Shown piece after piece: positions 2,100-24,625 of a DNA stretch of 24,625 bases. The notes under the pieces were generated by a model that was not told the DNA's origin, did not search any database, and saw only the letters and a program-made list of their open reading frames with translations. Both the position numbers and the translations under genes were made by a program. Every line of letters starts with the position of its first letter. Positions within the stretch are counted from its first letter, which is position 1. Source of the stretch: a virus; the IMG/VR virus record IMGVR_UViG_3300032736_000130, positions 1 through 24,625 of that record; one strand, 5' to 3'.

Positions 2100-3782
2100 G
2101 TGGGCTACAAGGTCCGCATCGGCTCTTCCGGGGCAGTCCGCAGCACGAGCAGCGGGGCGGTCGCCTCGGCCACGCGGCCCCAGGAGGCGGTTAAATCGAG
2201 CCTCGTCGGTACGAACATCCTTGCGATAGACTACTTCGGGCCTGTGATTCCATTCGTTGACCTGATGAGGGGCGCGTCGGTTTGGGTGAACACACAGACC
2301 TTCGATGATGCCGAAACAATCACGGCGGACGCGAACGGTTATGTGACGGCCCTCGGCGGGGGTCAGCGGGTCGTCTCCTACATCTGCTCGGCCAACGCCA
2401 ACGATATCGCAGATGGGACGATCTTCGTCTACTACACAGGCGACGGGGCATCTTATGGGAGTGGTAACGACTGGTGGTTCGACGCGCAGGGCGGCTCAAT
2501 CGCGGTCACCTCCCACGATACCGATAACAAGATTCTGGAACTGGATGTCACTTTCGGGCAGGACAGCGGCCAGTACCTCCTCCTCTACATCAACGGCATC
2601 GGCGCGGGCGGCTATCTCTCACAGATCGCCATTGTCCCGTCCGGTGTGCAGACGGAGTACCTGGCGGGTGAGACTTTCCACCCGACTTTCCTAGAGGGTA
2701 AGTACCCGTTCAAGTGCCTCCGCCTGATGAACTGGACGCAGATAAACAACTCAACGCAGAACACCTGGGCGAGTCGGATGCCTGCCACTTATCGTTGCTA
2801 CGGCGGCTCCTCGTGGGCAAACGCGACGGCCAACGCGCCTGCGCAAATGGTTCCCTACGAGGTGCAGATTGAACTGTGTAATAAAGTTCGTGCGGATGGT
2901 TGGTTCCATGTGCCGCACCTTGCGGGTACTGCCTGGTGGTCGGCGCTGGCGACGCTGATTCACACCAACTTGGACACGAACCTGCATTGTTACATCGAGC
3001 GGTCGAATGAGTTGTGGAACAACACCTTCGACCAGGTGGATGATGACCACGACGCAGGGCAGACCGCATATCCCGGCGAGCCGAATATCTACTATCGCGG
3101 GTACTACTACTCGGCCAATCAGGCGCGTCTTATGTTCGACGACTTTGAGGCCGTCTGGACGGGGGCGGACGCTGCGCGCCTTCACCGCGTGTTCGCGTGG
3201 CAGACCAATACATCCACCGTGTCGAACAATATTGTGGAGTGGGAGAGCCTGGAGGACCAGTTAGACCATTGGTCAATCGCCCCCTACGCCGCAGGGCAGT
3301 CAGGCGGATCGGCCAGTAAACTCGGGACGAATCCGCAGGCGCAGACCACGCCCGTCTCGCCGCACACGGTCATTACCCAGAGTATGACCACGGACGATGT
3401 GTTTGTGGCACTCGAACTCGACCTGACCACGAATGTCGTCGGCAACGCGACCACGATTGCGGCCATGGCCGTGAAGGGGATTACCTGTATCTGTTATGAG
3501 GCCGGGCAGCATCTCGTCGGTGTTAGTGGGGTGGAGAACGACACCGTGATTACGGCCCTGTTCACGGCAGTCAATCGGGACGAGCGTATGGAGCAGTGGG
3601 AGTATGACTACCTGACTGCCCTCAAGGACGATGAGGGCTATATCCTCGTCATGCTTTTCATCGACTACTACCGACCGAGCAAGTACGGCAACTGGGGACT
3701 CAAGGAGTACCAGGGCCAGGACGCCGCAGATGCGCCCAAGTGGCGCGGCTGCCGCCGATTCATCCAGGACAACGCCGAGTAA
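2100..3782 (+). CDS. glycosidase-like (clan GH-A type) virion-associated protein with N-terminal octapeptide repeats
   Basis: A 560-residue protein with a GTG start three bases after the previous stop. Residues 5-20 are two octapeptide repeats (VRIGSSGA, VRSTSSGA). From about residue 40 it resembles bacterial secreted proteins with a TIM-barrel glycosidase fold: an IDYFGPVIPFVDL opening, a beta-sandwich-like insert, RLMNWTQIN (about 204-212), PHLAG, and ERSNELWNNTF, where N303-E304 match the clan GH-A acid/base pair. A later YEAGQHLVG has E467 as nucleophile candidate. There is no signal peptide. In a phage structural operon a depolymerase or polysaccharide-binding spike is the natural inference, but activity is unproven and a purely binding role is possible. 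DNA composition is less GC-rich than the head genes. Confidence 0.65.
   Translation: MGYKVRIGSSGAVRSTSSGAVASATRPQEAVKSSLVGTNILAIDYFGPVIPFVDLMRGASVWVNTQTFDDAETITADANGYVTALGGGQRVVSYICSANANDIADGTIFVYYTGDGASYGSGNDWWFDAQGGSIAVTSHDTDNKILELDVTFGQDSGQYLLLYINGIGAGGYLSQIAIVPSGVQTEYLAGETFHPTFLEGKYPFKCLRLMNWTQINNSTQNTWASRMPATYRCYGGSSWANATANAPAQMVPYEVQIELCNKVRADGWFHVPHLAGTAWWSALATLIHTNLDTNLHCYIERSNELWNNTFDQVDDDHDAGQTAYPGEPNIYYRGYYYSANQARLMFDDFEAVWTGADAARLHRVFAWQTNTSTVSNNIVEWESLEDQLDHWSIAPYAAGQSGGSASKLGTNPQAQTTPVSPHTVITQSMTTDDVFVALELDLTTNVVGNATTIAAMAVKGITCICYEAGQHLVGVSGVENDTVITALFTAVNRDERMEQWEYDYLTALKDDEGYILVMLFIDYYRPSKYGNWGLKEYQGQDAADAPKWRGCRRFIQDNAE
2112..2159 (+). repeat. two 24-bp repeats encoding VRIGSSGA and VRSTSSGA
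   Basis: Tandem 24-bp units (2112-2135 and 2136-2159) encode an eight-residue pattern x-R-[IS]-[GT]-S-x-G-x. The same pattern opens the two small ORFs just downstream (3782 and 3889). Confidence 0.7.
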
Positions 3783-16221: not shown

Positions 16222-17637
16222 ATGGCCGTCAACAACCCCTTCACGATCACCTACAACAGCACCGCGATTGGTGGGAGTTCCGACACCTACCAACTGCTCG
16301 GCCCCTACGTCATCGACAAGAGCTACCGTGGGCTGCGCGTCTCCTTTGACGTGCTGGTGGTGGCATCGAGCGCGGCCACGCTGCGCAGCCTGAGCGACAC
16401 GCTGGAAACGAAGTTCCGCGAGCGCGACAAGAACCTTGAGATCAACGTCGGCTCGACGGTCTGGACCTGGACCCACGGGACGCACTACTTCAACTCCGCC
16501 GCGTCCATCGCCAAGAGCGGTGACAGCGAGACCGACCGGGGATTCTCGCGCGCCTACACGATCGTCATCGAGGCCGAACTGCCGAGCGACGAATCCGGAT
16601 CTAACGGCCTCCTGGAGATCCGCACCAACGTCGGCTTCGAGCCGAGCCGTCAGAAAAGCGTCACCGTCGAAGGGATCTACACCGCGACCGCGAGCGCCGA
16701 TTCGGAGGCCAACTACCTCACCAACGCGGACACCTACATCGACGCGCTGCTCACGGCCATCGACGGGGCGGCGACGTGGGAGCTTGTCACCGAGGACTAC
16801 GACTTCGACCGCAACACCTCCAACACACGGTTCCAGCGCCAGTACGTCGAACTCCTGTTCGACCAGAGCCAAGGCGCGCTCAACGATACGAGCATCCGCG
16901 ACCACCGGGTGATCTTCACCGACCTTTCTCAGCACCCGGCGGACTCGCGCGAGAGCATCCACCGCCTGCGGCGCGTGGTGGGGAGTTATGACTGCGCGCT
17001 CGACATCGGCCAGACCACCGACCTGCAAGCTGCGTTCAATGACCTTGTGCGCCCGCACATCCTCCAGACCTTCCAAGACGCGTTTAGCCCGGTGGTGTTC
17101 TGTCTGGAAGATCGGCGGATCTCCTACGACGAAACGACGAAGCGGATGTCTGTCTCCTTGCAGTTCCTCTACCAGAAAGACGGCGGGGAAGCCGTGGTCG
17201 AAATCACGCAGAGCGTGGCCTTCCGCGAACTGCGGAACATCGACTACACGCCGGTCCACAGCCGCGACTCCGAATCCTCTTTCTACGCGGATCCAGGCTG
17301 GTCCACCATCGAGCGGGTCTGGACGCGCACGGTGGTTGTGCTCGGCAACGAGCGCCCCCAGCGGCGCATCAGCGGGAGCCCGAGCTACGGGGATGCCGGA
17401 GACTTCGGGGAGATCGGCGGCCAGCGCCTCGAAGGCCGCCAGCAAATCAATCTCTCGGGCTGGAACGTTATTAGCAACGTCAGCCAAGTTCAGGAACAAT
17501 GGATCGGTGACCCGACCGATGATGACCAGATGAAACTCACCGCGCTCACCGAGACCGTGGTCGAGCGTTGGAATGATCTGCCGGGACGCGGCACCGCGTC
17601 GGGTGGGCCGATCACGCCCGGAGCGGGGCCGCGCTAG
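16222..17637 (+). CDS. distal tail / baseplate structural protein
   Basis: A 471-residue protein, ATG 16222 five bases after the previous stop. The N-terminal 160 residues form a beta-rich domain with one helix (AATLRSLSDTLETKFRERDK) and a WTWTHGTHYF strand, the layout of tube-like domains. A second domain at about 185-345 is similar in plan (VELLFDQS, a long helix from IHRLRRVV, LVRPHILQTFQDAF, VVFCLEDRRISYD, MSVSLQFLYQKDGG), suggesting an internal duplication of a tube fold as in distal tail proteins. The C-terminal 120 residues are Gly/Ser-rich and end in a Pro/Gly tail. It precedes the hub-like gene (TAGTG overlap), consistent with the tail tip. Confidence 0.5.
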   Translation: MAVNNPFTITYNSTAIGGSSDTYQLLGPYVIDKSYRGLRVSFDVLVVASSAATLRSLSDTLETKFRERDKNLEINVGSTVWTWTHGTHYFNSAASIAKSGDSETDRGFSRAYTIVIEAELPSDESGSNGLLEIRTNVGFEPSRQKSVTVEGIYTATASADSEANYLTNADTYIDALLTAIDGAATWELVTEDYDFDRNTSNTRFQRQYVELLFDQSQGALNDTSIRDHRVIFTDLSQHPADSRESIHRLRRVVGSYDCALDIGQTTDLQAAFNDLVRPHILQTFQDAFSPVVFCLEDRRISYDETTKRMSVSLQFLYQKDGGEAVVEITQSVAFRELRNIDYTPVHSRDSESSFYADPGWSTIERVWTRTVVVLGNERPQRRISGSPSYGDAGDFGEIGGQRLEGRQQINLSGWNVISNVSQVQEQWIGDPTDDDQMKLTALTETVVERWNDLPGRGTASGGPITPGAGPR

Positions 17638-19886
17638 TGGCTACCGGGCGCAAGCCGCGCATCGCCTACGCAGGCATCGAACTTGCCGCCTCGAGCGCGG
17701 TGGCGTGGCGCTTCACCACCGGCACCCGACCCTTCACGGCCACTTTCTCGGTCTACTACAAAGACTGGGATTCCCAACTGCGTCAGAAGATCGGCCACAC
17801 CAGCAACCTCTCGATCACCGACGCGCGCGGAAAGACGCTCGACATTCAAAGGTTGACGCTGCTCCACGAGGTGCCGAGCGGCGCGCCCAATCTCCGTAGT
17901 TTCGTCCTGGCAGACTTGCGCTGGCGGTGGCAATACCCGCTGATCTCCCGCGACTACAACGTGCCGAAGAAGACCGGCGATCGCACCGCGCAAGTCAATA
18001 CCCCGTTCCCCGGCTTCGTCACGACGGACGAATACGACTACAAAGGGTTCTCGCTCAAGGAAGGGAAGCGGGTCTGGACGGCGCGCGCGGCGCTCGAAGA
18101 CGTGCTCGGCCAACTCAAGCGGGAGGGGTTCAGTTTCGACTACTCCGTTGATAGTTTCCCGATTGATGAAGGGTCGGGCGCGCAGCGCGCCTTCACGATG
18201 CAGAACGTTGTGCTGCGCGACCAGGGCGACGTAGCCCTTTCGCGGATTCTCGCGTACATCCCTGGCGCGGAGATCTGGGTCGACGCTTCCGGCACCGTCC
18301 GCATCATCAACGGGGCGGACCTTTCAGCGGCAGAGTCCTACTTCCGCAGTCTCCCCGGTGCCACTTGGGACGGCGAGCGCGCCGTGATCGTGGACCGCAA
18401 GGCGATCCGCCCGCGCAAAGTCACCGTCCACTATCAGCGGGAAGTCGAAATCATCCTGGAATACTCGGATGCGTTCAGCGGCACCGTGGCGCGACCGGCG
18501 AAGAACCGGCCCTACATCGAGAACGTCATTCAGACCGTGGACGATTCCACGACGGTCACCGAGTTCGACCCGGTCACCGGCCAGACGGTCACCAAGGCCA
18601 ATCTACCTCCCGGCACCTGGGTCGAGTTCCGCGCGTGGCTGGCGGCGATGGACGAAGACCGCCCGCCGAACTCTTTCCCGTGGAACTTCGACACAATCAA
18701 GACGTTCTGGGTAGTAGGTGAACTCGACGGCGCGCTCGGTGGTGGTGGTCTCGACCTGGACGAAAGCGCGAACATCTCGATGCGGATCCAGGCGATCAAG
18801 CAGCACTTCCGCCAGAGCTTCCGCATCAACAGGCTGCTCATGGACAGAACGAGGGATATCCAGAACGTCTCGGCCATGCTGCTCGACCCGTACACCGGGA
18901 CGCGGGGGCCGTCGCGCGTCTGGGGCCAAGCGACGATCATCCCGACCAAGAAGGGGGAAATGATGACGCTCCGAAAGGATCCCAATAACGCCTTCCTCTA
19001 TCGCAACGTGGACTATTTCGCGCCGACGCAGAACGAGTTTCTGGGGCGCACGGTGCAAGCCCCGCACGGCCCGACGAAGGTCAACATCCTGGACCGCGAT
19101 CTGGGAATCTTCCGGCTTGACTGGATTCTTTCACCCTACGGCACCGATGAGAGTTTCGTTCCGTGCATGCTCCAAGATGAGCAAGGGCGTTCCAACGTGC
19201 CGCGCCGCGATCTCTCACGGCAAGATGATGACCCGATGGGTGTGGGGTTTAAGGTCGAGAGCGGGAGCAACTCCATCTTCTTGGCTGGATCGCTCAGTTA
19301 CCGGGTGCTGCTGACCTTCATCCCCGGCGCGCCGAACAACAAACGCGCCTTCCATCCGATCGAACTCACCGCTTCCGACGTGGAAGCCTTCGTCGAGGGC
19401 GACTGGCGGATCGGCTCCGGGTTCGGCCCCGATCTGGAAGTCTTCATCCCGCCCTCTGAGGCAACCGCGCGCTTCGCGTGGCAGTCCGACATCGCCGCTG
19501 GCACGTCGGTCGGCAACCTCTTCGGTCTCAACGAGGAAGACCCGCTCGAAGGCGGGATCAACGGCACCGAGATTCCCGGCTATGTGCTCACCAACGGAGA
19601 GCGGGAACTGGCATCCCACTCGCGCGCGGTGGCGTCAGAAGTCTACGCGAGCTTCGCGGACAGCCTTCAGGGGCGCGTGGCGACGATCGTGCCGGAGGAA
19701 GGTGTGAAGATTGCCGGCAACATGAGCGGCGTCACCGTGCAGGCTGCCGCTGCCCCTTCGGGTAAAGTGTCCGCGATGCACGATTTCCCCGGCGTCCAGA
19801 AACCCATCTCGCGCCTTGCGCTGATGAGTGAGAGCGCGCGGCAAGTCGTGCTCGGCATCGTGCGATTCTCCGGAGGGGATTCGTAG
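17637..19886 (+). CDS. tail hub / baseplate-like protein
   Basis: A 749-residue protein with GTG start overlapping the previous stop (TAGTG). It is rich in beta structure with several helices. Residues 155-245 (RAALEDVLGQLKREGFSF, then QNVVLRDQGDVALSRILAYIPGAEIWVDASGTVRII) match the usual hub pattern in which a helical segment is followed by 'lI.y.pgaeiw.d..G.v.i'. Upstream parts include a strand-rich domain with SLKEGKRVWTARA. The middle carries a WVEFRAWLAAMDED region and a Gly/Leu loop GALGGGGLDLDE. The C-terminal 250 residues are a further beta domain. The protein is likely the scaffold to which the fibre encoded next is attached; no lysozyme or peptidase motif is visible. Confidence 0.55.
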   Translation: MATGRKPRIAYAGIELAASSAVAWRFTTGTRPFTATFSVYYKDWDSQLRQKIGHTSNLSITDARGKTLDIQRLTLLHEVPSGAPNLRSFVLADLRWRWQYPLISRDYNVPKKTGDRTAQVNTPFPGFVTTDEYDYKGFSLKEGKRVWTARAALEDVLGQLKREGFSFDYSVDSFPIDEGSGAQRAFTMQNVVLRDQGDVALSRILAYIPGAEIWVDASGTVRIINGADLSAAESYFRSLPGATWDGERAVIVDRKAIRPRKVTVHYQREVEIILEYSDAFSGTVARPAKNRPYIENVIQTVDDSTTVTEFDPVTGQTVTKANLPPGTWVEFRAWLAAMDEDRPPNSFPWNFDTIKTFWVVGELDGALGGGGLDLDESANISMRIQAIKQHFRQSFRINRLLMDRTRDIQNVSAMLLDPYTGTRGPSRVWGQATIIPTKKGEMMTLRKDPNNAFLYRNVDYFAPTQNEFLGRTVQAPHGPTKVNILDRDLGIFRLDWILSPYGTDESFVPCMLQDEQGRSNVPRRDLSRQDDDPMGVGFKVESGSNSIFLAGSLSYRVLLTFIPGAPNNKRAFHPIELTASDVEAFVEGDWRIGSGFGPDLEVFIPPSEATARFAWQSDIAAGTSVGNLFGLNEEDPLEGGINGTEIPGYVLTNGERELASHSRAVASEVYASFADSLQGRVATIVPEEGVKIAGNMSGVTVQAAAAPSGKVSAMHDFPGVQKPISRLALMSESARQVVLGIVRFSGGDS

Positions 19887-19887
19887 G

Positions 19888-22536
19888 GTGCCTAGCGGCT
19901 TCACCGACTGGGCGGACCTCGGCGTCTTCCCCGCGCAGGACGTGGAGGAAGGTGTCCCGATCGGGATGCGGATGGCGCTGGTCGCTGGCCGGGTGCTCAC
20001 GCGGCCCGACCCGAGCAAGGGCGGTGCCGCGTCGGTCACCGAGTACGCGCGCGAGCACGGGCTAGGCACCCTCGGCGACGTGCATCCGTGGTTCTTCTGG
20101 CAGACCAAGGAGCGCGAGAAGCGAGCGATGGGCTCCTGGGCGCAGATGTGGGGCGCGATCGTCACCGACTCCGCGAGTTCCTACTACGGCGGGTCGGCGG
20201 GAGTGCAGCCGCTCACGCGTGACGAAGGCGATCACCAGACGAACGATCCGCGCTACCGCGTGGTGCAGCCTGCGTGGTCGCGCGCGCTGCCGTGGCAGCC
20301 CGAGGGGATGCTCGCGATCGTGGCACCTTCCACGAGCGAGACGGAACCCGGCTCCACCATGCTTTCCGCCGACCGTCGCCTCGTCGCGGCGAACGTTGGA
20401 GGGCCGGGGCAGTGCGGCACAACCGTCGTGGACTTGCAGCCGGAAGGCGAACTCTGCATGGACGGCAGTATCAACCCCGGCCAGTACGGGCGTCACGCTC
20501 GCCTCCAGGCCATCTTCCGCGTGATCGCGCTCCCCGGCATGGGAATCGGTGGAAGGTCGAACCTCAACAGCATCGCGCTCAACTACGGCTATTCCCAGCA
20601 GGACGGCATCGTCGGCCTCGGGATGATCTACGGCCCCGCGCTGGGCGGCGGCGGCGGGGGGAGCGGTGGGCCGATCACCGAGGGCGGCAACAGCCGCACG
20701 GGGCCGATCACGGAGGGGGGCAACAGCAACCCCCACCTCTCGACAGGCGACACCAACCCATACCGCTCGGGCAACCTCGGCGGGTACTCCGCTCCCTCAG
20801 GGCCGGGAAGCCCCGGCGAGCCTGCCGGACGCGGGGGCGGCGGCTTCGCTGGCCCGGGTGGTGGAGCGTTCGGTGACAGCGGCGGGGAAGGGCCGAACGC
20901 GAGCGATGCCACCGCCGTTGAAGGGTTCGGGAAGTTCGCTTCTGCGGCTCGCGGCGGTCACGCGATCGGCTTCATGTCGGCGGCGGTGAGCGGCCCGATC
21001 ATGTTCGGCTGCACGCGGCACGTCGTCGGCACCGATCGCGACGGGCATCTGATGACGCCCGCGCACATCACGACGAACACCCTGGTCTTCGACTCGCCCG
21101 ACCGGGATGGCCCGTTCCTCTTCGAAGGTGAGTTCCCGCGTGCGTCGGTGGCGCAAGTGCCGAACCTCGTGCATCTGTCGTGGGATAAGAACACCGACCA
21201 CTCCTTCATCGGCGGCACCCGCCCCGGAAAATGGCGCTGGTGGACGACAGTGCCCTACGTCGAGTCCGATTCCAAGCCTACCGGCCCCGGCACGGGAACG
21301 ACTCCTAGCTCACCGAGTACGCCGAGCACGCCCGGTGCGCCGGGGCGTCCCAGCACTCCCGGTTCTCCAGGGCGTCCCAGCACACCGGGGGCTCCCGGTG
21401 CACCTGGATCGCCGACTCAACCACCAGGGCCGGGGAGACCGTGGACGCCCGGTGGTGGCACTTGGCCGCTACCCCCCGGCGCACCAGGGACGTATGGCCC
21501 GGGGCCGCACTTCGGCTCGCCGCCCTCCACGCCCTCGGTGCCGGGGCTACCTTCGACACCCCCCACGCCGACGCGACCGCCGACGCAACCGAAGCCGCGC
21601 GGCAAGCCGAGAGGCCCGGTGACGGGGGAACCCGCGAAGCCTTCCGCACCGCTTGCGCCGTCCGAAATGCCCTGGCTGAACGACTACACCACGTCGCCGG
21701 GAAGCCAACTGAACTCCGGGAGGGGCAACAACTTCCGCTACTTCGATCTCGAAGACGCGGCGGACGAGATCCAGGATCTCGGCGGCCCTGCCGGAGTCAT
21801 CACCAAGGTCGGCGGCTCGGCGCGCGGGCGCGACGTCGGGCTCTACGGGATCTTCCATCCGTTCAACAACAGCTTCGCGGCGCTCGCCTTCCGGCCTCAA
21901 CTATGGATCAAGGGTGCGCCGAACTTCGAGCACAACCCGCTGCTCTCCGCCGACGTGCTGAGAAGGGAGGAACGCTCACGGCCCTCGACGATCACGGTTC
22001 GCGCATGGGGCGCACAGAGCAACAGCGGCGATTGGGACTACATCGAGCCCCCGGTGTCGTCACGCGCGCGCGGAGGCACCGTCAACGGCGGCCTGCTCTT
22101 CGCGCCGTCTGAGTTCGAAATGGAAGACTATCTCGGCATCAACAGCGATGCCGATACGGATAGCCCGCTTGCGACCACCTACGCCATGTTCGCGCCGGGG
22201 GTCGCGGTGGCTTTCGGCAAGCCGACCGTGAGCGGGGTGCCTTCGGATATGTCGAAGGTGATCCACCAGGACACCGCGTCCGGCGAGCTCCTCATCTCCG
22301 AGCTCAACGCGAGCGGAGTCGCCACCAACATCGCCAAGTTCTCCCAGGATACCGCCGACGACCCGGCGCTGCCCTACGCCGAGTTTGAGGGTACTCGCGG
22401 GGTCAAGATCCCGTCCGGCACCACTACGCAGCGCCCGTCAGCCCCAGTGAACGGCGATCTCCGCGTCAACACCACAAGCGACGAACTCGAATACTACTCA
22501 GGTGGCTCTTGGCGCACCTTGTCCGGCGCTATCTAA
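19888..22536 (+). CDS. long tail fibre with collagen-like segment
   Basis: An 882-residue protein. I chose GTG 19888, after GGAGGGG (about 19872-19878) and overlapping no gene, over an upstream in-frame ATG at 19828 that lies inside the hub gene. Residues 1-250 form the tail-attachment domain. A Gly-rich linker follows with an 11-residue tandem repeat (GPITEGGNS twice) and poly-Gly. Then a beta domain (about 350-460) and a collagen-like stretch 474-521 made of 16 triplets ending in Pro (GAP, GRP, STP, GSP). A Pro-rich stretch continues to about 600. The C-terminal domain ends GTTTQRPSAPVNGDLR, then EYYSGGSW, the usual ending of phage fibre tips. The Pro-Gly segment is a plausible substrate for the oxygenase at 24269. 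Confidence 0.75.
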   Translation: MPSGFTDWADLGVFPAQDVEEGVPIGMRMALVAGRVLTRPDPSKGGAASVTEYAREHGLGTLGDVHPWFFWQTKEREKRAMGSWAQMWGAIVTDSASSYYGGSAGVQPLTRDEGDHQTNDPRYRVVQPAWSRALPWQPEGMLAIVAPSTSETEPGSTMLSADRRLVAANVGGPGQCGTTVVDLQPEGELCMDGSINPGQYGRHARLQAIFRVIALPGMGIGGRSNLNSIALNYGYSQQDGIVGLGMIYGPALGGGGGGSGGPITEGGNSRTGPITEGGNSNPHLSTGDTNPYRSGNLGGYSAPSGPGSPGEPAGRGGGGFAGPGGGAFGDSGGEGPNASDATAVEGFGKFASAARGGHAIGFMSAAVSGPIMFGCTRHVVGTDRDGHLMTPAHITTNTLVFDSPDRDGPFLFEGEFPRASVAQVPNLVHLSWDKNTDHSFIGGTRPGKWRWWTTVPYVESDSKPTGPGTGTTPSSPSTPSTPGAPGRPSTPGSPGRPSTPGAPGAPGSPTQPPGPGRPWTPGGGTWPLPPGAPGTYGPGPHFGSPPSTPSVPGLPSTPPTPTRPPTQPKPRGKPRGPVTGEPAKPSAPLAPSEMPWLNDYTTSPGSQLNSGRGNNFRYFDLEDAADEIQDLGGPAGVITKVGGSARGRDVGLYGIFHPFNNSFAALAFRPQLWIKGAPNFEHNPLLSADVLRREERSRPSTITVRAWGAQSNSGDWDYIEPPVSSRARGGTVNGGLLFAPSEFEMEDYLGINSDADTDSPLATTYAMFAPGVAVAFGKPTVSGVPSDMSKVIHQDTASGELLISELNASGVATNIAKFSQDTADDPALPYAEFEGTRGVKIPSGTTTQRPSAPVNGDLRVNTTSDELEYYSGGSWRTLSGAI
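20668..20727 (+). repeat. two 33-bp direct repeats encoding GPITEGGNS-x-x
   Basis: 27-base cores at 20668-20694 and 20701-20727 are nearly identical and offset by 33 bases, so the linker repeats in steps of 11 residues. It lies in the Gly-rich linker of the fibre. Confidence 0.8.
21307..21450 (+). repeat. collagen-like (X-X-Pro) coding repeat
   Basis: Codons 474-521 of the fibre form 16 consecutive triplets ending in Pro, many starting with Gly (GAP, GRP, GSP), so X-Pro-Gly occurs repeatedly. At DNA level a 14-base unit GGGCGTCCCAGCAC occurs at 21343-21356 and 21370-21383, 27 bases apart. Confidence 0.8.
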
Positions 22537-22548
22537 CCACCGTAGACT
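22519..22548 (+). promoter_or_regulatory. promoter candidate TTGTCC-18-TAGACT
   Basis: TTGTCC (22519-22524) is separated by 18 bases from TAGACT (22543-22548), ten bases before ATG 22559. It is the only TAGACT site in the window with a recognisable -35. It would drive the lysis genes. Confidence 0.5.
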
Positions 22549-22558
22549 GAATGCGCAC

Positions 22559-22804
22559 ATGGCTGAAGCCCCTACCGATACGAACTCCGACGACGTCACC
22601 GAACTCGTTGACGCCGACCGCGCGTCCCGAGACGACGCCCGAGCGCGCGCGAGCGCGTGTTCCGCTGAGATCCACGCCGCGCTCCAGCGGCACCGCTGCC
22701 GCATCCTGCCGCGAATCGACCCAGCGAACATCGAGTTCGTCGGCGCTGCCGGTGACAAGGTGATGATCGCGGCTACCTACTGGATTGCTCCTCTAGCCCC
22801 CTGA
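22559..22804 (+). CDS. small hypothetical protein at the start of the lysis cassette
   Basis: An 81-residue soluble protein. ATG 22559 was chosen because it follows the TAGACT element and leaves the frame clear of the fibre stop. An in-frame start farther upstream would lie inside the fibre gene. Residues 1-45 are acidic and helical (TDTNSDDVTELVDADRAS, then RARASACSAEIHAALQRHR). The C-terminus is a short strand-rich part ending in Trp and Pro. No membrane segment is visible. A similar small acidic helical protein is often found next to holin genes, but I do not recognise a family. Confidence 0.55.
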   Translation: MAEAPTDTNSDDVTELVDADRASRDDARARASACSAEIHAALQRHRCRILPRIDPANIEFVGAAGDKVMIAATYWIAPLAP

Positions 22805-22810
22805 GCACAG

Positions 22811-23023
22811 ATGCCCGAGTCGCAAACACTACAGATCGAGAAGTTCGAGAAGATCATCCAGGCCGTCACGGTGGCGCTGCTGCTTTTCTGCATCTTCTTC
22901 CTCACCAGGGCGCTCAACCAACTGGATGTCATCAGCATCCAGGTGGCCCACAACACCACCAGCGTCGCCGTCCTGACGGAGCGCGTGGAGGTCTTGAGGC
23001 AACAATCCCAGAAAAACCCTTGA
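22811..23023 (+). CDS. small membrane protein, holin candidate
   Basis: A 70-residue protein starting six bases after the previous stop. Residues 1-14 are polar; residues 15-34 (QAVTVALLLFCIFFLTRAL) form one strongly hydrophobic transmembrane helix, followed by an amphipathic, coiled-coil-like tail (LTERVEVLRQQ). One membrane helix and a polar tail after the fibre gene fit a single-span holin or a membrane-anchored lysis accessory. Distinguishing these needs structural or functional evidence. The gene lies between a helical protein and a second membrane protein, in keeping with a lysis cassette. Confidence 0.5.
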   Translation: MPESQTLQIEKFEKIIQAVTVALLLFCIFFLTRALNQLDVISIQVAHNTTSVAVLTERVEVLRQQSQKNP

Positions 23024-23040
23024 AAAATACGGGCGGAAAA

Positions 23041-23051
23041 GTGAGTCTCAC
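23041..23051. repeat. 11-base perfect inverted repeat GTGAGTCTCAC
   Basis: GTGAG-T-CTCAC lies 15 bases before ATG 23066 in a 42-base gap. It could be an operator half-pair or a short hairpin; too short for a terminator. Confidence 0.35.
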
Positions 23052-23065
23052 GCATCTAGTTATCT

Positions 23066-23338
23066 ATGAAATCCGCTGCCACCGCCGCCGTCCTGCTGAT
23101 GGCGGCCCTCACTTGCGCGATGACCTGGCGCATGGGGGAATATCTCACCAATCTCAGTCACCAAATGGAGAATGAAACGATCATGGCACAATCCCACGAA
23201 ACTTCCTGGCAAGACGCTGAAGGACTGACCCACAAGGTCACGACTCCGCTCAACGCGGGCAAATCCGACGACGAATGGGCCGATCGACACGCCGCTTCCG
23301 TCGCCGCTCTCAAGAACATCTTCCCGCCCGCCGCATGA
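23066..23338 (+). CDS. small membrane-anchored phage protein (lysis cassette)
   Basis: A 90-residue protein with an N-terminal hydrophobic segment (residues 5-20, AATAAVLLMAALTCAM) that could be a signal anchor. The remainder is polar: W-x-D-A-E-G-L-T-H-K-V-T-T, GKSDDEWADRHAASVAAL, ending FPPA. The pattern 'W-D-x-x-G-x-x-H-x-V-x-T ... W-x-x-R-H ... FPP' recurs in small phage proteins of unassigned function, as I recall it. Membrane location and neighbours suggest a role in lysis such as an inner-membrane spanin partner, but there is no coiled coil of spanin length. No ribosome binding site is clear. Confidence 0.55.
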   Translation: MKSAATAAVLLMAALTCAMTWRMGEYLTNLSHQMENETIMAQSHETSWQDAEGLTHKVTTPLNAGKSDDEWADRHAASVAALKNIFPPAA

Positions 23339-23472
23339 CCATCTTCACCCTCATCTTCACCTTCCTGTTCGGCGGCTTCGACATGAGCCTCCGACAGCAC
23401 CCCGACGCCTCGGATCACAGCGGAGGCGGCGCGCGAGCAGGGGACCAAGGCTTCGACTACACGCACAACTAG
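23335..23472 (+). CDS. very small membrane protein (45 residues)
   Basis: ATG 23335 overlaps the previous stop (ATGA 23335-23338). An in-frame ATG at 23275 lies inside the preceding gene and is rejected. Residues 2-13 (TIFTLIFTFLFG) are hydrophobic and short; the remaining part is Gly/Ser/His/Asp-rich and polar. The coupling supports translation. Too small for assignment; it may be a holin or antiholin-like peptide. Confidence 0.45.
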   Translation: MTIFTLIFTFLFGGFDMSLRQHPDASDHSGGGARAGDQGFDYTHN

Positions 23473-23475
23473 CGC

Positions 23476-23742
23476 ATGAGGATCCTCCTATGCGTTCTGC
23501 TCTGCTCCTCCTGCTCGCTGTTCCGCTCGGAGGCTGCGCCTTCTTCGGATCCCTCGTCCACGGTGGCACCGTCGCTACCGGCGCAGCAGCAGGAGCGGCC
23601 ATCGGGGGGGTCCCCGGTGCTGCCATCGGCAGCATCGTCGGCTTCTACGGGGGCGACTTGGCAGCAGAGCAAGTATCCGGCACCCGTTCCGTGCGAGTCG
23701 GCCCCAATGGGAAAGTCTCATCCCCGGCAGGCAGCGGCCTGA
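23476..23742 (+). CDS. overlapping Pro/Ser-rich lipoprotein ORF, possible Rz1-like outer-membrane spanin
   Basis: An 88-residue ORF that starts 14 bases before the next gene and lies in its +1 frame. It begins with a short hydrophobic segment ending LLCSSC (Cys at residue 13), which resembles a lipobox, and the rest is Pro/Ser/Gln-rich without predicted helix. Rz1-type outer-membrane spanins have exactly this form and are usually embedded in the +1 frame of their partner. There is no ribosome binding site, and the Leu/Cys run could arise from CTC/CTG codons of the overlapped frame. Speculative. Confidence 0.3.
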   Translation: MRILLCVLLCSSCSLFRSEAAPSSDPSSTVAPSLPAQQQERPSGGSPVLPSAASSASTGATWQQSKYPAPVPCESAPMGKSHPRQAAA

Positions 23743-23996
23743 CCGGGGCAATCACTCAAGCCTCAGGGATCAACAGCATGAATGGAATACTCTGGATCAT
23801 CGCCATCCTCGCCTTCCTCCACTTCGGTGGATTGGCGTGGCTCCGCAAACAGATCTCCGATCGTGAGAAGTCCGCAGCGGACACGGACGGTGATCGCATC
23901 GCGCACAAGGCGCGCACCGCCGCGCTCGAGGCCGACAACGCCCGGATGCGGAAAGAACTGGACGAACTCTGGGATCGAGTGCCGCCGAAAGGCTAG
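23490..23996 (+). CDS. lipoprotein with glycine-zipper, membrane helix and coiled coil (spanin-like)
   Basis: A 168-residue protein. ATG 23490 has GAGGA at 23478-23482, seven bases upstream. A signal sequence with lipobox (LLLLLAVPLGGC, Cys16) suggests lipid attachment. Residues 28-55 are a Gly/Ala zipper (GAAAGAAIGGVPGAAIGSIVGF). Residues about 98-118 form a transmembrane helix (NGILWIIAILAFLHFGGLAW). The last 45 residues are a coiled coil (ALEADNARMRKELDEL). Lipoprotein plus later membrane helix resembles single-gene spanins that tie outer to inner membrane, although the coiled coil follows the helix. The order differs from known types, so it is a candidate only. Confidence 0.6.
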   Translation: MRSALLLLLAVPLGGCAFFGSLVHGGTVATGAAAGAAIGGVPGAAIGSIVGFYGGDLAAEQVSGTRSVRVGPNGKVSSPAGSGLTGAITQASGINSMNGILWIIAILAFLHFGGLAWLRKQISDREKSAADTDGDRIAHKARTAALEADNARMRKELDELWDRVPPKG

Positions 23997-24086
23997 ACTC
24001 GACTGCGGGGACGGGCAGCGCAGCCCTGACCCAAGGGGAAAGTGAAACGAAGGTGAGCCGTTGACCGAGAGGTCAGCGGCTCTTTT
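23994..24086 (+). ncRNA. candidate short RNA between TAGACT and the terminator
   Basis: TAGACT (23994-23999, its TAG being the stop of the preceding gene) is followed by about 80 G-rich bases with a GGGC/GCCC hairpin (about 24013-24026) and the strong terminator. No ATG follows at the usual spacing, so a short non-coding transcript is possible. The element may also be coincidental. Confidence 0.2.
24055..24086 (+). terminator. strong intrinsic terminator closing the late operon
   Basis: GAGCCGTTGACC (24055-24066) pairs with GGTCAGCGGCTC (24071-24082) through 11 Watson-Crick pairs and one G-T pair, loop GAGA, followed by TTTT and C/T residues (24082-24086). Confidence 0.9.
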
Positions 24087-24094
24087 CTGTATAC

Positions 24095-24126
24095 GAAAAA
24101 GGCGAGACGGATTGCTCCGTCCCGCC
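24095..24126 (-). terminator. intrinsic terminator for a minus-strand transcript
   Basis: GGCGAGACGGA (24101-24111) and TCCGTCCCGCC (24116-24126) pair at 10 of 11 positions with a four-base loop. On the minus strand a run of five T follows (complement of 24096-24100). It implies that something is transcribed leftward from beyond 24126. Confidence 0.7.
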
Positions 24127-24139
24127 TAGATTGGTCAAG

Positions 24140-24155
24140 CCTAGATCACTCTAGG
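24140..24155. repeat. inverted repeat CCTAGA-TCAC-TCTAGG and CTAG cluster
   Basis: A perfect six-base inverted repeat with TCAC loop (24140-24155). GCCTAGAT occurs twice as a direct repeat (24124-24131 and 24139-24146). CTAG, usually rare in bacteria, occurs about six times between 24124 and 24263, suggesting a protein binding region. Confidence 0.5.
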
Positions 24156-24207
24156 CAGCCATCTTCAATCCGTTGTTATTGGCAGTCTTGTTTTTCAGGC
24201 TAACCAC
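24151..24207 (-). other. short minus-strand reading frame ending in an ssrA-tag-like sequence
   Basis: Read leftward, the frame is open from after a TAG at 24232-24234 and ends at TAG 24151-24153. From GTG 24207 it encodes 18 residues; the last ten read ANNNGLKMAA, in the style of tmRNA tags (Ala at resume codon, ending in -AA). A terminator in the same direction follows at 24095-24126. I could not find the tRNA-like ends of a tmRNA (no GGTTCGA-type T arm, no 5' GGGG...TTCGAC). It may be a real small peptide, a degenerate tmRNA part, or chance. Confidence 0.3.
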
Positions 24208-24255
24208 CCAACGATTACGCTCCCACGCACTCTACTCACTAGCGTAACACGCGTC

Positions 24256-24261
24256 TAGACT
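24256..24261 (+). promoter_or_regulatory. -10-like TAGACT seven bases before ATG 24269
   Basis: TAGACT (24256-24261) lies within the palindrome GTCTAGAC (24253-24260) and is seven bases from ATG 24269, with no Shine-Dalgarno between. The preceding terminator means that the oxygenase gene needs its own promoter. No good -35 was found. Confidence 0.4.
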
Positions 24262-24268
24262 AGGCCGC

Positions 24269-24625
24269 ATGGAGCCCGCCGAAGACTCTCCCGCGCTGGC
24301 GGAACGCTACCGCGCCGCACGCTACACGACGTTCGACAACGTGATGCCCGCCGAGTGGATCGGCGCGGCGGGGGAATGGCTCCACTCCCAGCGCGGCCTC
24401 TTCACGCGCGGCGGTGACGACGGGCGCGGGCATTTCAACTTCGAGTTGCCCGACGTCGACGATCTCTATGCGCCGATCGGCGCGCTCAAGGCCGCGATCG
24501 CTTCCCACATCAGCGATGCCGTCAAGCAGATCGGCACCGCCGACTTCGACCTCGGGGGTCTCGACTGCCACGCCGCGCTCTACCACCACGGCGGTCACTA
24601 CGCATGGCACACCGACGCGCCGCTC
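24269..24625 (+). CDS. 2-oxoglutarate/Fe(II) oxygenase, prolyl 4-hydroxylase-like (partial, 3' end beyond window)
   Basis: 119 codons are present and the frame runs off the right edge. The N-terminal half is a helical region with an RGHFNFELPD strand (about 53-62) and a helix from PIGALKAAIASHI. The C-terminal part has YHHGGHYAWHTDA (about 105-117), where H114 and D116 form the H-x-D half of the Fe(II)-binding triad; the distal His and the 2-oxoglutarate-binding Arg would lie outside the window. These enzymes hydroxylate Pro or Lys in proteins, or other substrates. The gene follows a terminator and has its own putative promoter. The nearby fibre with X-Pro-Gly repeats is a plausible but unproven substrate. 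Confidence 0.75.
   Translation, partial: MEPAEDSPALAERYRAARYTTFDNVMPAEWIGAAGEWLHSQRGLFTRGGDDGRGHFNFELPDVDDLYAPIGALKAAIASHISDAVKQIGTADFDLGGLDCHAALYHHGGHYAWHTDAPL

Follow-up and report, generated by a model that had tools for sequence, protein, structure and literature searches.

Introduction

Genes for 2-oxoglutarate (2OG)-Fe(II) oxygenases rank with the more frequent accessory genes in phages of aquatic habitats. Collagen has glycine at every third position in long (Gly-X-Y)n tracts, collagen-type prolyl 4-hydroxylases (P4Hs) have a lysine at the site of the 2OG C-5 carboxylate, and proline-rich repeats other than collagen may be substrates of some viral prolyl hydroxylases; a chlorovirus P4H reportedly modifies viral proline-rich repeats, as Eriksson is said to have described in 1999. 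Here we analyse a 2OG-Fe(II) oxygenase gene on the viral-metagenome record IMGVR_UViG_3300032736_000130, a single linear stretch of 24,625 bases (the window) that looks like a tailed-phage structural region, in which the gene follows a tail-fibre-like gene with a proline-rich linker. A first-pass annotation had proposed that a collagen-like fibre is matured here by the phage's own prolyl hydroxylase. Our analysis favours, at a probability of roughly 0.62, a different reading: a protein hydroxylase resembling PPHD, PHD2 and OGFOD1, kept as a stable late accessory gene near a fibre whose non-collagen linker also functions in related phages that lack the enzyme.

Among the described protein hydroxylases, PPHD of P. 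putida hydroxylates EF-Tu (PMC7864055), and in OGFOD1 the 2OG C-5 carboxylate is bound by Arg230 (PMC4396695). Known phage collagens are triple-helical, with no hydroxylation reported (PMC3368898, PMC8968730). Viral P4H genes have been tied to tail-fibre collagen in print by way of speculation, with a role that "remains cryptic" (PMC9301287, which also cites Eriksson's paper), and in the literature accessible to our search we found no report of prolyl hydroxylation of a phage fibre.

Results and Discussion

The gene at 24269 does encode a 2OG-Fe(II) oxygenase, one that falls by fold group with the prolyl hydroxylases. Its N-terminal part lies in the window:

24269..24625, plus strand: 2OG-Fe(II) oxygenase, N-terminal 119 amino acids, cut by the contig end past HxD; best identity 57-59%, to full-length L067, L068, L069 and L070
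24608..24616, plus strand: HxD, the first two iron ligands (H114 and D116), invariant in oxygenase alignment A6

The open reading frame (ORF) is still open at the contig end, and the hydroxylase motif YHHGGHYAWHTDA claimed for it earlier is indeed present, as residues 105-117 (DNA 24581-24619). On its own the fragment gave no Pfam match and a weak match to the 2OG-oxygenase family phrog_61 (E 0.049), and direct searches with it found no relative in viral contigs, reference phages or the PDB; homologues were reached by way of the relatives of the window portal gene and then by further searches. Ten related contigs carry one (G005, G019, G028, G030, G031, G033, G035, G037, G047 and G052), full-length in nine and as the 3' part only in G035. 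Five homologues tested against PF13640 scored 41-59 bits (cut-off 27), with 52-59 bits for homologues in which HxD...H...R is complete. The window copy ends before the distal histidine and the 2OG-binding arginine, so both were read from the full-length homologues, all of which retain them together with HxD, the arginine within a C-terminal GRW(A)xGWxHG (H175 and R191 in the L067 protein). An exact-pattern search of viral contigs for the rest of the window gene returned no overlapping contig; L002, whose portal is identical to that of the window, stops short of the oxygenase. Two bacterial-genome scans returned no relative of the subfamily. The assignment as a prolyl-hydroxylase-like enzyme holds, since the homologues complete HxD...H...R, those tested pass PF13640 and one models as a prolyl-hydroxylase-type fold.

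That model is an AlphaFold2 prediction for the G005 homologue L067 (59% identical to the window), built on 12 aligned sequences (pLDDT 87) and superseding one from 8 close sequences (pLDDT 66). The predicted structure is a prolyl-hydroxylase-type double-stranded beta-helix. It matched P. putida PPHD best (Z 19.3), followed by Trichoplax PHD and human PHD2 (18.7-18.9), OGFOD1 (17.9), Tpa1 and PiuC (both 17.7) and the collagen P4H of chlorovirus PBCV-1 (17.1). In a sequence profile, GRW(A)xGWxHG aligned with RLSISGWFHG of OGFOD1, Arg191 lying opposite the OGFOD1 arginine. With PPHD (4j25/4iw3), PHD2/EGLN and OGFOD1/Tpa1 the predicted fold agrees over 165-172 residues (Z 17.7-19.3), sharing HxD...H and the arginine aligned with Arg230, but the enzyme studied here is phage-encoded, and identity is only about 17-21%. 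The cyanophage and marine phage 2OG-Fe(II) oxygenases of phrog_61 belong to the same Pfam family, are likewise late or accessory phage genes and gave weak but significant PHROG matches (E down to 3e-13); they differ in identity (26-38%), in their neighbourhoods and in having HxD...H...GtR without the 10-residue insert of the window subfamily. The PBCV-1 enzyme (5c5t) is viral and of the same fold, but it comes from a eukaryotic virus and matches less well than PPHD/PHD2 in both structure and sequence. Since collagen P4H nevertheless stands close behind them, the fold gives the prolyl-hydroxylase type and cannot name the substrate.

The divergence of the oxygenase follows that of the tail protein encoded upstream of the fibre (rho 0.85; 1 of 5000 permutations as high), which argues for a long-standing resident. 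The tail-protein tree, whose backbone is unresolved, did not support acquisition of the enzyme in one event.

The fibre gene and its linker have the following layout:

19888..22536, plus strand: tail-fibre-like protein, ORF; start placed by homologues beginning MSSGFTDW
21268..21693, plus strand: proline-rich linker of the fibre, 32% proline, not collagen; at the equivalent position in all full-length homologues
21298..21450, plus strand: 17 consecutive triplets ending in proline, glycine first in 8; a length reached by 0 of 5000 shuffles

Although the reading frame is open from GTG 19828, homologue starts point to GTG 19888, right behind the upstream stop at 19884-19886. An N-terminal domain, a glycine-rich linker, a middle domain, the proline-rich linker, a C-terminal domain and a tip follow one another. 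The gene has the features of a tail fibre: it sits behind tail genes and is modular, with a variable linker and a conserved tip. The tip has PHROG family matches, including one to a virion structural family.

Triplets ending in proline (XXP) form their longest run in TTP SSP STP STP GAP GRP STP GSP GRP STP GAP GAP GSP TQP PGP GRP WTP (residues 491-541 when numbering starts at 19828). The 16 triplets counted earlier (21307-21450) are real and strongly non-random, but the full run of 17 starts one triplet upstream of them and lies far above the maximum of 10 reached when the 142-residue linker region was shuffled. Pro-Gly pairs are enriched as well (15 against a shuffle mean of 7.6; 4 of 5000 shuffles as high). 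Glycine at every third position is not: in the window, the linker's longest Gly-X-Y run is 3 (shuffle mean 2.5), a length that 2038 of 5000 shuffles equalled or exceeded, and serine or threonine often takes the place of the leading glycine. As glycine leads only 8 of 17 triplets and the Gly-X-Y run is no longer than in shuffles, the window fibre is not collagen, contrary to its first description, and no collagen-like stretch was found anywhere in it within this contig, itself a fragment. A run of XXP triplets does not make collagen. In phage collagen-like tail fibres, for example those of E. coli O157 prophages, the linker likewise lies inside a tail-fibre-like protein, but there it contains long (Gly-X-Y)n. 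Judged by its sequence, the window linker is a proline, glycine, serine and threonine spacer between conserved domains, and its conformation is probably extended and polyproline-II-like.

Fibre homologues occur in 12 of 30 portal-related contigs, and in every full-length one a proline-rich linker lies between the same two conserved domains. We compared the 13 relatives in which it could be delimited (20-34% proline), eight enzyme-bearing and five enzyme-free. The linker sequence changes fast, yet the linker keeps its place and its make-up, the pattern that a spacer should show. Longest Gly-X-Y runs were 2-6 in 12 of the 13. The exception is L084 in contig G035 (13575-13658), which has a (Gly-Pro-Pro)n segment with 10 uninterrupted Gly-X-Y triplets, on the same contig as the 3' part of an oxygenase gene; G035 is the best place to test the idea of collagen maturation. 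The notion that enzyme-bearing linkers are more collagen-like or richer in proline or Pro-Gly was rejected, as no feature tracked enzyme presence (n = 8 and 5): median proline was 25% with and 28% without the enzyme, Pro-Gly pairs per 100 residues 7.4 and 8.0, and the Gly-X-Y run 4 in both groups. Longer XXP runs in enzyme-bearing phages were rejected likewise (p 0.30), and the enzyme-bearing L086 and L100 linkers have no XXP excess.

The enzyme and the fibre do lie near each other, at 1.7 kb from the fibre stop (22536) to the oxygenase ATG and 2.8 kb when measured from the last XXP triplet, where about 3 kb had been given. Related phages keep both genes wherever contigs cover both; however, four long fibre-bearing contigs with an equally proline-rich linker (G023, 49.3 kb; G026, 43.1 kb; G027, 49.6 kb; G043, 46.4 kb) gave no match to the oxygenase subfamily profile, PF13640, PF13661 or phrog_61. 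Direct end repeats (127 bp, 75 bp and 43 bp at 98%) indicate that G026 and G043 are complete and G023 probably so. For metagenomic contigs, absence can be called only as far as the profiles detect the gene, and in a control on enzyme-bearing records PF13640 and the subfamily profile matched all, while phrog_61 and PF13661 missed some, so the absence rests mainly on the first two. Divergent 2OG oxygenases also stand beside terminase genes, just upstream of the terminase in G037 (L108 5451-6212), which has two oxygenase genes, and between terminase and portal in G004 (L004 5747-6451). Among reference phages, 354 records contain superfamily relatives; their gene neighbourhoods vary, and many of these phages are without this fibre. 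With apparently complete relatives that have the proline-rich fibre and lack the enzyme, and divergent oxygenases beside the terminase, the proposed functional link between enzyme and fibre is not needed. A partnership is possible but unproven, given that the linker is not collagen and close relatives keep it without the enzyme.

An alpha/beta hydrolase (PF00326) lies directly 3' of the oxygenase in two relatives (L067 3121-4017, L070 10677-11573) and not in others, a hint that the late cluster ends in an accessory region. At two further loci (L118 730-1215, L119 8470-8928) a strongly proline-rich 150-residue protein (MDLGAPPVLPVLRLPEAPQLP...) is encoded directly 3' of a distant phage 2OG oxygenase. 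It was rejected as the marker of a pair; relatives of this protein occur in T7-like cyanophages.

In the reading that we favour, the late-end oxygenase of this group of uncultured tailed phages, whose portal and capsid genes are Mu-like, would be an accessory gene of long standing that is passed on vertically. We infer that it is catalytically active and expressed late; most likely it hydroxylates a residue, plausibly proline, of some protein that is synthesised or needed late in the infection. A first guess at the target, by analogy with PPHD and EF-Tu, would be a protein of the host, for example a translation factor, while the fibre linker would serve as an extended, probably polyproline-II-like spacer between folded domains, functional without the enzyme in related phages. 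Several points weigh against this reading. PPHD outscores collagen P4H by a narrow margin (Z 19.3 versus 17.1), and the linker comparison is small, with only eight enzyme-bearing against five enzyme-free phages. In addition, every contig covering both genes has the oxygenase 1 to 2.5 kb downstream of the fibre, an arrangement also in keeping with an enzyme dedicated to modifying that fibre.

The best surviving alternative, unlikely as we consider it, is that the enzyme acts on the fibre itself, hydroxylating prolines of its proline-rich, non-collagen linker for stiffening or as a site for further decoration, and that enzyme-free relatives do without. The action that some viral prolyl hydroxylases may have on non-collagen repeats leaves room for it, and in its favour are the stable position downstream of the fibre, Pro-Gly pairs at about twice chance in the window linker and the long XXP runs of the window's closest relatives (17, 20, 9 and 9); the GPP repeat of the enzyme-bearing G035 and the published speculation on viral P4H genes point the same way. 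What tells against it are the apparently complete genomes with equal linkers and no enzyme, the XXP run length that does not differ with the enzyme, and the two enzyme-bearing linkers without XXP excess. Its more ambitious form, a dedicated, late-expressed prolyl hydroxylase acting on the polyproline-II-type linker of its own fibre, with real (Gly-Pro-Pro)n as the target in G035, would be the first such self-modification in a bacteriophage and strikes us as improbable.

More doubtful still is an action on DNA, nucleotides or a small metabolite, whether in repair, base modification or amino-acid hydroxylation. Oxygenases of the same group do include free-proline hydroxylases and PiuC, and cyanophage superfamily relatives adjoin helicase or UvsX/UvsY genes, for which a repair role was proposed (PMC2984593), one being annotated beside uvsW; yet the window gene stands in the late structural region and not with replication genes, and its top structural matches are protein prolyl hydroxylases. 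The original version, a triple-helical collagen fibre matured by the phage's own collagen prolyl hydroxylase, has in its favour an enzyme of the right fold beside a Pro/Gly-rich fibre and the one relative with true (GPP)n, but is very unlikely in the window phage and, as far as the residues themselves tell, refuted for its fibre, by Gly-X-Y runs no longer than in shuffles there, short runs in 12 of 13 homologues and known phage collagens that are triple-helical without reported hydroxylation.

One phage group combines a defined oxygenase subfamily inherited with the tail genes, members without the enzyme and one relative with a (Gly-Pro-Pro)n fibre. With this distribution and that relative, the long-standing suggestion of fibre hydroxylation by the phage itself can be tested directly.

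In the window, the genes follow in the order portal (Mu-type, PF06074), Mu F-like protein (PF04233), capsid protein (PF25209, Mu gpT-like), tail genes, the 749-residue tail protein, the fibre-like ORF, small ORFs, a hairpin and the oxygenase ORF. The remaining features are:

17637..19886, plus strand: conserved tail protein, 749 amino acids, 5' of the fibre; in 31 related loci and used as phylogenetic marker for the tree
22562..22804, plus strand: small conserved ORF, 80 amino acids, between fibre and oxygenase, from comparison with related contigs
24055..24086, plus strand: terminator-like hairpin and T run, 12 bp stem; fold -30.1 kcal/mol, z -3.56

A homologue of the 80-residue ORF stands directly 5' of the oxygenase in several relatives and is retained in oxygenase-free relatives too. 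The terminator-like hairpin (24055-24082) lies 3' of the last gene of the late cluster, between that cluster and the oxygenase in the window phage. Upstream of the portal gene, a 560-residue protein (window 2100-3782) looks by eye like a virion protein of glycoside-hydrolase type; it has no Pfam match.

In the AT-rich gap before the oxygenase, the minus strand of 24151-24198 reads AAAAACAAGACT GCC AAT AAC AAC GGA TTG AAG ATG GCT GCC TAG, that is ANNNGLKMAA and a stop, similar to an ssrA/tmRNA tag. The Rfam permuted tmRNA model scored 11.6 bits on the window (E 0.044), far under its gathering score; a tRNA-like part was looked for and not found, nor was a copy of the stretch among the other loci or viral contigs searched. 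The tag-like stretch is followed by a hairpin and a terminator-like site on the minus strand (24127-24100).

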